This document shows, one piece after another, positions 32,173 to 39,965 of a stretch of 64,000 bases of DNA; the first letter of the stretch is position 1; the number at the start of each line of letters is the position of its first letter. The stretch covers positions 62,001-126,000 of the forward strand of contig NZ_JACHJH010000006.1 in the NCBI RefSeq assembly GCF_014203555.1, in the 5' to 3' direction. The DNA is from Streptomyces olivoverticillatus. GTDB lineage: Bacteria > Actinomycetota > Actinomycetes > Streptomycetales > Streptomycetaceae. The notes under the pieces were generated by a model that was not told where the DNA came from, searched no databases, and saw only the letters and a program-made list of their open reading frames with translations. The position numbers and the translations under genes are program-made.

Positions 32173-32769
32173 GTGAACAGCGTGCGCAGCGCGGTAGTTG
32201 CCAGGACGGTTCCGCAGCGGCTGCTGGCAGCCGCCACCCGGCTCTTCGCCGAGCAGGGCTACGACCGCACCTCCGTCCAGGAGATCGTGGAGGCGGCGGG
32301 CGTCACCAAGGGCGCGCTCTATCACTACTTCGGCTCGAAGGACGATTTGCTGCACGAGGTGTACGGGCGGGTCCTGCGGCTGCAGCAGGAGCGGCTGGAC
32401 GCCTTCGCGGACGCGGCGGCGCCGGTGGAGCAGCGGTTGCGGGAGGCCGCTGCGGACGTCGTCGTCACGAGCATAGAGAACCTCGACGACACGAAGATCT
32501 TCTTCCGGTCGATGCACCACCTCGGCCCGGACCGGCTCCGGCAGGTCCGCGCCGAGCGGCGCCGCTACCACGAGCGCTTCCGCGCGCTGGTGGAGGAGGG
32601 GCAGCGGTCGGGCGTCTTCAACGCGACCACCCCCGCCGACCTGGTGGTGGACTACCACTTCGGGTCGGTCCACCACCTGGGCAGCTGGTACCGGCCGGGC
32701 GGCCCGCTGGGCCCGCAGCAGGTGGCCGACCACCTGGCCGACCTGCTGCTGCGGGCGCTGCGACCCTAG
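32173..32769 (+). CDS. TetR-family transcriptional regulator
   Basis: A 198-residue TetR regulator: RLLAAATRLFAEQGYDRTSVQEIVEAAGVTKGALYHYFGSKDDLLHEV is the DNA-binding domain, followed by a C-terminal helical domain similar to lipid/CoA-responsive TetRs. GTG 32173 is preferred to GTG 32167 because AAGGAG at 32157-32162 is then well spaced. It converges on the acyl-CoA dehydrogenase operon and is the likely regulator of the palindrome at 35115. Its TAG stop lies in a CTAG followed by the same ten bases that begin the MITE at 39219. Confidence 0.9.
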   Translation: MNSVRSAVVARTVPQRLLAAATRLFAEQGYDRTSVQEIVEAAGVTKGALYHYFGSKDDLLHEVYGRVLRLQQERLDAFADAAAPVEQRLREAAADVVVTSIENLDDTKIFFRSMHHLGPDRLRQVRAERRRYHERFRALVEEGQRSGVFNATTPADLVVDYHFGSVHHLGSWYRPGGPLGPQQVADHLADLLLRALRP

Positions 32770-32779
32770 GGCGTGTCCG
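32766..32779. repeat. 14-base match to the MITE end
   Basis: CTAGGGCGTGTCCG here is identical to the left flank plus terminal inverted repeat start at 39215-39228. After these bases the two diverge. It may be a decayed solo end of the same element at the TetR stop codon, or chance. Confidence 0.4.
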
Positions 32780-38294: not shown

Positions 38295-39218
38295 ATGAAG
38301 GCTGTCAGCTACCGCGTCTACGGCGGCCCCGAGGTCCTCGAATACGGGGAGCTGCCCAAGCCCAAGGTGGGCCCGGACTCCGTCCTGGTCCGGGTGAAGG
38401 CGGCGGCCGTCAACCCCGTCGACTGGAAGGCCCAGGCGGGCTACCTGGAACCGCTGCTCGACGCGGTCTTCCCCGTGATCCCCGGCTGGGACGTCTCCGG
38501 CGTGGTCGTCGCCGTGGGCTCCGACGTTCCCGAGTTCCAGGAGGGCGACGAGGTCATCGGCTACGTACGCGAGGACGTCCTCTCCCGCGGTACCTTCGCG
38601 GAGTACGTGGCGGCCCCGGTGCGCACCCTGGCCCGCAAGCCCGCCGGCCTCAGCCACGAGGAGGCGGCCGGCCTCCCGCTGGCCGGCCTGACCGCCTACC
38701 AGGCGCTGAAGGCCGTGGGGGCCGCCTCGGGCGACACCGTCCTGGTGCACGCCGCCGCCGGCGGGGTGGGCTCGATGGCCGTCCAGCTCGCACGCCACTT
38801 CGGCGCCCGCGTCATCGGCACCGCCAGCGAGCGCAACCACGACTACCTGCGCGCGCTGGGCGCCGAGCCCGTCGTCTACGGGGACGGGCTGACCGAGCGC
38901 GTACGGGCCCTGGCGCCCGAGGGCGTCGACGTCGTCCTCGACCTGGTCGGCGGCGGCGTGATCCGTACCTCGGCCGAGGTGAGCGCGCCCGGCGCCCGGC
39001 TGGTCTCCATCGCCGACCCGGAGGTGGCCGACCTCAACGGCCGCCTGCTGTGGGTGCGCCCCGACGCCGACGACCTGACCGCGCTGAGCCACCTGGCGGA
39101 GCAGGGCGTCCTCTCGGTCGAGGTGGCGGAGGTCTTCCCGCTGGAGAAGACGGCGGACGCGCAGCGCCTGAGCGCCCAGGGCCACACCCGGGGCAAGATC
39201 GTGGTGACGGTGCCCTAG
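38295..39218 (+). CDS. NADP-dependent quinone oxidoreductase-like MDR protein
   Basis: A 307-residue medium-chain reductase lacking zinc ligands. YRVYGGPEVLEYGELPKPK opens the GroES-like domain, GWDVSGVVVAVG follows, and VHAAAGGVGSMAVQLARHFGARVIGTAS is the Rossmann motif. It likely reduces a quinone or enone with NADPH. ATG 38295 has AGCACGGAGGAG upstream. It shares an operon with the MFS exporter, consistent with detoxification. Its TAG stop is formed by the CTAG flanking the inserted element at 39219. Confidence 0.9.
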   Translation: MKAVSYRVYGGPEVLEYGELPKPKVGPDSVLVRVKAAAVNPVDWKAQAGYLEPLLDAVFPVIPGWDVSGVVVAVGSDVPEFQEGDEVIGYVREDVLSRGTFAEYVAAPVRTLARKPAGLSHEEAAGLPLAGLTAYQALKAVGAASGDTVLVHAAAGGVGSMAVQLARHFGARVIGTASERNHDYLRALGAEPVVYGDGLTERVRALAPEGVDVVLDLVGGGVIRTSAEVSAPGARLVSIADPEVADLNGRLLWVRPDADDLTALSHLAEQGVLSVEVAEVFPLEKTADAQRLSAQGHTRGKIVVTVP

Positions 39219-39428
39219 GGCGTGTCCGATGGGTCGGCACAGGCCCCGCGACTCCCCCAGCTACCGCTGGGAGGTGCCCCCGGCACGGCACCTCGCTGCG
39301 TTGTCGCACGACCCGAGTACGCCCAGTACGCGGGTCATGCTCCGCCTTGCGATGCTCCCCCAGCTACCGCTGGGAGGTGCCCCCAGCGCCAGACGCCGCG
39401 GGACCCGCACTGACCCATCGGACACGCC
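39219..39428. mobile_element. MITE-like element with 17-bp TIRs and CTAG duplications
   Basis: A 210-base non-coding element. Terminal inverted repeats GGCGTGTCCGATGGGTC at 39219-39235 and its exact complement at 39412-39428 are flanked by CTAG at 39215-39218 and 39429-39432, as expected for a 4-bp target duplication of IS5-type transposases. Inside are two identical 30-base direct repeats (39252-39281 and 39355-39384), each containing the small hairpin CCCAGCTACCGCTGGG, and a central ACCCGAGTACGCCCAGTACGCGGGT-like palindrome (written here only to show symmetry; 39310-39336). No ORF encodes a transposase, so it must be mobilised in trans. Confidence 0.8.
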
Positions 39429-39965
39429 CTAGCGCGTGCCGGAGGCCGAGGGCATCGCCCTCAGCCTCCGGTAGGCCTCGAAGCCGTCCGGCACCCAGTC
39501 CCACTCGCCGAGCCGCTGCGCCAGCTCCGCCTCGGAGAGGAAGGCGTGCCAGGCCACCTCTTCCTCCTGGGGGCTGACCGGCAGCGCGCACCGAACCTCA
39601 TACACCGCCGACCACCAGCTGTGCTCGGCGGTTTCGTACAGGAACCGGAAGAGCGGCACGGGGGCCGGGAGGCCGCTGACGCCCAGCTCCTCCTCGGCCT
39701 CGCGCAGGGCCGCCTCGTCGTAGGTCTCGCCCGCGCCGACGACCCCGCCCACGAACATGTCGTAGCGGGAGGGGAAGACGAGCTTGCGGTCGGTGCGGCG
39801 GTGCACGAAGATCCGCCCCCGGGGATCCCGGGCAAGGACGAAGACGCACCGGTGCCGCAACCGCCGGGCGTAGCTCTCGGCGCGCAGCGCCTGCCCGACG
39901 ACCCGGTCGTGTTCGTCGACGATGTCCAGCAGTTCGTCTTCCGCGAGCGGTCGCTGATCGGTCAT
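39429..39965 (-). CDS. Nudix hydrolase
   Basis: A 178-residue protein with the Nudix box GGVVGAGETYDEAALREAEEELGVSG (GX5EX7REUXEEXGU). RHRCVFVLARDPRGRIFVHRRTDRKLVFPSRYD is the upstream strand region. This subtype, with an N-terminal DEHDRVVGQALRAESY stretch, resembles isopentenyl-diphosphate-isomerase-like Nudix enzymes such as YfcD. It hydrolyses a nucleoside-diphosphate-like substrate not determinable here. ATG 39965. Its TAG stop lies in the right CTAG copy of the MITE. Confidence 0.9.
   Translation of the reverse strand: MTDQRPLAEDELLDIVDEHDRVVGQALRAESYARRLRHRCVFVLARDPRGRIFVHRRTDRKLVFPSRYDMFVGGVVGAGETYDEAALREAEEELGVSGLPAPVPLFRFLYETAEHSWWSAVYEVRCALPVSPQEEEVAWHAFLSEAELAQRLGEWDWVPDGFEAYRRLRAMPSASGTR

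Follow-up and report, generated by a model that had tools for sequence, protein, structure and literature searches.

IS870, an insertion sequence of Agrobacterium, is presumably a member of the IS5 family. According to the title of Fournier et al. (1993), reference 93 of PMC6471742, IS870 needs a 5'-CTAG-3' target, by which the stop codon of its large open reading frame is created. In Pseudomonas syringae, MITEPsy1/ISPsy2 is represented by a MITE of 100 nt; passages of PMC3189936 give it terminal repeats of 18 nt, a duplication of CTAG or YTAA and a possible origin from an insertion sequence. For ISLxc2 and ISLxx4, elements of the IS481 family in Leifsonia, an extract of PMC2516522 places the transposase stop inside the duplicated target NCTAGN.

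The window analysed here, a stretch of 64,000 nt of Streptomyces olivoverticillatus DNA, contains a 210-bp element between the ends of two convergent genes. It is probably a non-autonomous, CTAG-duplicating MITE served by an IS870-like transposase, with entry at a CTAG that ended both genes as the most likely course of events.

The element and the convergent gene ends

The features of the locus are listed in Table 1. The element is short and non-coding, carries exact terminal inverted repeats of 17 bp and is multicopy, with 16 full-span copies in the host genome. These copies and the sequence itself bear out the earlier note, which had described a 210-bp MITE with exact repeats at this position, flanked by CTAGs that contain the TAG stops of both genes; its further claim that the duplication keeps both stops intact also holds.

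Table 1. Features of the window at and near the 210-bp element.
Feature	Position	Strand	Remarks
Solitary element end CTAGGGCGTGTCC	32766-32778	+	directly at the TAG stop of another gene
Oxidoreductase gene (label of the earlier note)	38295-39218	+	TAG stop 39216-39218 inside left CTAG
Left CTAG, target duplication	39215-39218	.	contains oxidoreductase stop
210-bp MITE	39219-39428	.	between the two CTAGs
Left 17-bp terminal inverted repeat GGCGTGTCCGATGGGTC	39219-39235	+	
Nested small palindrome CTCCCCCAGCTACCGCTGGGAGGTGCCCCC	39252-39284	+	missing in 158-bp form
Match to core model R1	39268-39372	-	118.6 bits (R1 built in part from this copy); RNA-like covarying structure; common to MITEs with other ends
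Second nested small palindrome	39355-39387	+	missing in 158-bp form
Right 17-bp terminal inverted repeat	39412-39428	-	exact inverted copy of left repeat
Right CTAG, target duplication	39429-39432	.	contains Nudix stop
Nudix gene (label of the earlier note)	39429-39965	-	TAG stop in right CTAG, complement of 39429-39431

The terminal repeats are embedded in an arm of 39 nt that is 85% complementary. Open reading frames wholly within the MITE comprise 63 and 67 aa, in a list whose floor is 60 aa, and longer mechanical frames merely cross it. Homologues of the oxidoreductase in relatives stop at or near the same codon; the Nudix protein has 178 aa if its start is MTDQRP. The small palindromes at 39252-39284 and 39355-39387 have constant ends and variable loops, occupy fixed sites of the core and have kin copies elsewhere in the genome.

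The element family in the host genome

A search of the host genome (5.5 Mb in 16 contigs, 93.8% complete) returns 53 stretches similar to the element, with the window copy among the 16 that are full-span. Their lengths are 210 bp (seven copies), 196 bp (one), 185 bp (three), 182 bp (one) and 158 bp (four), and the closest other copy is 99% identical to that of the window. CTAG is found on both sides in 12 of the 16 copies, on one side in three and on neither side in one. By alignment, what sets the longer forms apart from the 158-bp form is chiefly the presence, at two fixed places, of one or two CTCCCCCAGCTACCGCTGGGAGGTGCCCCC palindromes. This palindrome also matches elsewhere in the host genome, and the nested-palindrome motif occurs once in 500 kb of host-genome background. 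In a tree of 27 rows (31 were tried and four dropped as short), the window groups with the verticillate species, although support for this position is weak (81/75).

The host genome has 44 exact copies of the 13-base end CTAGGGCGTGTCC, and no version with TGAG or TAAG was found there. At 12 of the 44 sites a second end is missing nearby. In 8 of these 12 solitary ends, a plausible gene stops with the TAG, and similarity to the element ceases within about one base after GGCGTGTCC in 10 of 12. The solitary ends look like footprints of lost elements; a search with 13 bases conceals shorter remnants. One-ended 13-base remnants that diverge after GGCGTGTCC are located in G000 at C1:716303, C1:779447, C1:813188, C3:86509 and C4:607925, and further ones at C6:218482, C6:328973, C7:124949 and C8:163683. 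The gene adjoined by the solitary end of the window at 32766-32778 has an orthologue in G018 (L328) that likewise stops in a CTAG, and the sequence next to this stop looks, by eye, like the terminus of a CTAG element of another kind.

Candidate transposases

The search of the host genome for an autonomous partner, intact and with these ends, was negative; DUF4096 gives three hits there and DDE_3 two. At the three DUF4096 hits, ends were either different or not detected; the locus L213 matches this Pfam family, described as a putative transposase of the IS4/5 family. Two IS5-type elements of the host genome have CTAG flanks and ends that are merely related, the closer one with 13 of 17 end bases.

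Outside the host genome, IS5-family elements of other Streptomyces share up to 16 of the 17 end bases with the MITE. An insertion sequence on a plasmid of Streptomyces sp. WAC00288 (L248) has CTAG on both sides, agrees in 16/17 end bases on the left and 15/17 on the right, and carries a gene annotated as IS5 family transposase. Three contigs (L297, L306, L312) of G018, a genome that probably belongs to S. cinnamoneus, break inside an element ending in CTAGGGCGTGTCCGATGGCTC (16/17 alike), which is known from these contig ends and not at full length. Read inward, its frame ends in EPSDTP (IWLRDLIKEPSDTP), followed by the TAG of the flanking CTAG. The G018 locus L032 and the named S. cinnamoneus locus L093 have the same 809-bp gap and the same gene ends.

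A stop codon taken from the target is also found on plasmids. The final base of the IS5-annotated transposase genes of L315, L316 and L317 is the last base of a flanking CTAG, CTAG and CTAA, respectively. L316 is an open frame; the annotated lengths of L315 and L317 are not multiples of three, and the translation of L315 has internal stops. The reading frame thus takes its stop from a CTAG target in L297, L306, L312, L315 and L316, and from CTAA in L317.

The ends point to mobilisation of the MITE by an IS5-family, IS870-like transposase, as we infer from sequence comparison. The earlier note had suggested an IS5-type partner with the same terminal repeats, and L248 and the G018 element support it as near-matches (16/17) in other Streptomyces. 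IS630 elements duplicate TA with a preference for CTAG. A partner of that type was considered; the transposases of the elements found to have matching ends are of the IS5 type. Single-ended plasmid matches (L249-L253, L255) were examined and not taken as partners. On the S. californicus plasmid L255, a related transposon end (2501-2522) starts at the stop of an annotated Tn3 family transposase gene, which ends on the last base of a CTAG.

Preference for gene ends

CTAG is rare in this DNA. The window has 17 occurrences against 156 expected from base composition, and 564 kb of the host genome (window included) have 104 against 1439, a depletion of about 14-fold; some three in ten of the remaining CTAGs end a gene. 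Coding ends were called for frames of at least 50 codons with GC3 of at least 0.8 that exceeds GC2 by at least 0.15. By this rule, a TAG stop adjoins 26 of 38 elements and 25 of the 82 CTAGs taken as background (one-sided p = 1e-4). The 26 comprise 10/16 host copies and 16/22 distinct elements of other genomes, the latter being the best matches to the window element and not a random sample. The 22 derive from 24 elements by removal of duplicates before the test (L171 = L300, L185 = L286), and four whose boundaries are imprecise (L192, L182, L179, L198) were retained and scored as misses. Double stops are found in 5/38 elements and 2/82 background CTAGs (p = 0.03), where for one of the five, L291, the counted frame reads through a second element end.

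A second gene caller, which did not recognise the Nudix stop at the window element, places 9 of 16 host copies and 18 of 82 CTAGs at stops (two-sided p = 0.011), and 3/16 copies and 26/82 CTAGs inside genes (p = 0.38). When these 26 intragenic background CTAGs are omitted, the excess is weaker (26/38 versus 25/56, p = 0.02), in a comparison that mixes the two gene callers and keeps the intragenic elements. Much of the excess at stops can therefore be due to survival rather than aim. We note that the nesting of the element family at gene ends is well supported.

The proposed mechanism combines these observations. An IS5-family, IS870-like transposase would insert the non-autonomous MITE at CTAG and duplicate the tetramer. 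In IS870-like elements, the transposase frame crosses the terminal repeat and stops at the TAG that the CTAG target provides. Since the scarce CTAGs often end genes, surviving insertions would be located mostly at stop codons, where the duplicated CTAG would rebuild the stop on either side and alter neither protein. For the window copy, the most likely target was a single CTAG in which both convergent genes stopped.

The gene junction in relatives

The junction was compared in the best 80 of 228 oxidoreductase loci, 60 of which have a facing Nudix gene within 3 kb; only these 60 were used. The gap between the two genes is at least 500 bp in 43 of them and 0-499 bp in 16, and in one the genes overlap. 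The latter is S. lilacinus (L095), where oxidoreductase and Nudix genes share four bases, a single CTAG that provides TAG stops on both strands, and where the oxidoreductase is one codon shorter. Genes meeting at one CTAG are what the earlier note had expected in relatives. The nearest relative, S. netropsis, is 82% identical in both proteins and S. lilacinus is no closer than several others, hence its site is a homologous configuration and not an empty allele. A near-identical empty allele of the window site was not found among the relatives examined. The earlier note's proposal that one CTAG served as both stops before insertion is thus backed by S. lilacinus and by the double-stop CTAGs without element in the host genome (2/82), and the empty allele that would complete it is missing. 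A single shared CTAG is likely, and the better reading, albeit unproven.

Alternatively, the present arrangement might have arisen in two steps, first by insertion at a CTAG in which only the oxidoreductase gene stopped, and later by loss of the intervening bases, upon which the Nudix gene came to end in the right CTAG. Several observations fit such a course. In S. griseocarneus, CTAGGGCGTGTCCTAG is found at the oxidoreductase stop (reading ...CCCTAGGGCGTGTCCTAG), likely a footprint of the same element, and 42 bp separate the two stops; S. triculaminicus has a shorter stretch similar to this one. Moreover, the oxidoreductase stop is part of a CTAG in 12 of the 60 relatives, as compared to 2 of 60 for the Nudix stop. 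At L003, the other double-stop copy of the host genome, the left gene ends in TGA in the relatives L320 and L321, with no CTAG near its end within the stretch examined. Against this stand the single shared CTAG of S. lilacinus and the two element-free double stops, and we regard the two-step origin as rather unlikely.

Entry at a shared CTAG, as well as the two-step course, involves a duplicated target, and the tetramers might instead belong to the element's own ends. CTAG on both sides of 12/16 copies would be compatible with this. A third kind of MITE in G016 (L048), however, has CTAG on both sides, the right one fitting, in our own reading, the stop of the neighbouring convergent gene, and G033 (L039) and G011 (L041) have a single CTAG at the same site. 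MITEs and insertion sequences with unrelated ends have CTAG as well, which makes CTAG as an end of the element very improbable. The flanks of the 12 copies and the filled and empty site of this other MITE class support the CTAG duplication that the earlier note had assigned to the element, whereby the palindromic CTAG makes duplications of 4 bp and of 2 bp (TA) indistinguishable at the window site.

It is scarcely credible that the 210 bp are a terminator or regulatory hairpin of ancestral origin, conserved with the gene pair, rather than a mobile element: the fold is very stable (z = -9.8 against shuffles), but 15 more full-span copies are located elsewhere in the host genome, the same 210 bp are not conserved in relatives, where blastn (E of 1e-3 or better) finds matches between the genes in 2 of 60 (L104, L122) and to the core part only, and the hairpin has no U run.

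One of these two matches, in S. coffeae (L122), is a MITE with different, decayed ends and the same core, which starts from the oxidoreductase CTAG stop and has TGAG on its right side. Together with G016 and the footprint, this case indicates that the gene-end region was hit repeatedly.

The earlier note had also suggested that the hairpin terminates both transcripts. No terminator-like site was found in 39050-39600, nor a sigma-70-like site in the scan, and the GC-rich hairpin followed by a U run that characterises intrinsic terminators is absent. Streptomyces may use other termination signals, and the suggestion is unsupported rather than disproved.

A core shared by MITEs with different ends

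In a sample of 392 Streptomyces genomes, a search with the element gave matches at E of 1e-20 or better in 43 (host included), and many of these matches are confined to its middle part. Among the MITEs so recovered there are at least six types of end, namely GGCGTGTCCGATGGGTC, GGGGGTTTCGTTTGGATCAG, TGCTGTGACCGGAAAGGTT, GGCCCTGTCCGGCGGATCTTCG, GGCGTGTTTCGAAAGT and GGGTCTGTCGTCAAAGG, and most of these MITEs have CTAG on at least one side. In 16 of them, the best matching segments (at least 60 bp) are 76-93% identical to the 158-bp form.

From 34 distinct cores, 32 were used in the covariation test and two omitted. The consensus of these 32 aligned cores, on the strand opposite to that of the window, has 24 pairs; compensatory changes occur in 11 of these, a count that is inflated by relatedness, is based on a structure derived from the same alignment, and may include the mutual correction of DNA hairpin arms. 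Paired cells amount to 97.8% versus 91.0% in shuffles, and none of 500 shuffles reaches any of the five measures. Over the 34 cores, the minus strand folds better than its complement (-26.0 versus -13.6 kcal/mol), and its non-Watson-Crick cells comprise 32 G-U in 8 columns versus 3 A-C in 3. The strand-biased folding and the excess of G-U point to an RNA or to one preferred single strand.

The core model R1, applied to 582 kb of the host genome, recovers the window copy, one of the sequences from which it was built, with 118.6 bits and then nothing above 22 bits. No Rfam 15 family matches 39000-39700 at its gathering threshold, and relaxed thresholds give hits at chance level only. The Rfam family Scr5676 reached 12.9 bits (gathering threshold 56, E = 4.8) and disappeared on a narrowed stretch, and was dismissed as chance.

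We tentatively suggest that the MITE body may be a conserved structured RNA, encoded on the minus strand, which at least six CTAG-targeting ends would have recruited and spread into the 3' ends of genes via their stops. Our guess is that swapping of one end, followed by its copying to the other arm of the hairpin, exchanged the ends of the core. This core with its exchanged ends, a candidate RNA that occurs with several transposon ends unrelated to one another, is the part worth following up.

Comparison with known systems

The proposed mechanism amounts to a transposon strategy for a dense, GC-rich genome, in which a rare tetramer would serve as the element's own stop and often as that of the host gene, and its duplication would restore the gene end. 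It entails the testable prediction that IS870-like elements land at gene ends. Among the matches listed, in which subscription journals are poorly covered, none dealt with CTAG MITEs in Streptomyces or with a body common to MITEs whose ends differ. MITEPsy1 differs from the window element in sequence, and the passages of PMC3189936 mention neither an association with stop codons nor a core found across different ends. ISLxc2 and ISLxx4, as portrayed in the extract of PMC2516522, resemble it in having a stop codon within the duplicated target, and differ in transposase family, in a duplication of 6 bp and in being autonomous. IS870, as characterised in the title of Fournier et al. (1993), is similar in that some insertion sequences whose ends resemble those of the window MITE likewise take their stop from CTAG. 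IS870 itself is autonomous and belongs to another phylum, whereas the window element is a MITE and the stops at issue are those of host genes. Among the CTAG-inserting MITEs of the IS5/IS870-like type, the window element is a new member.
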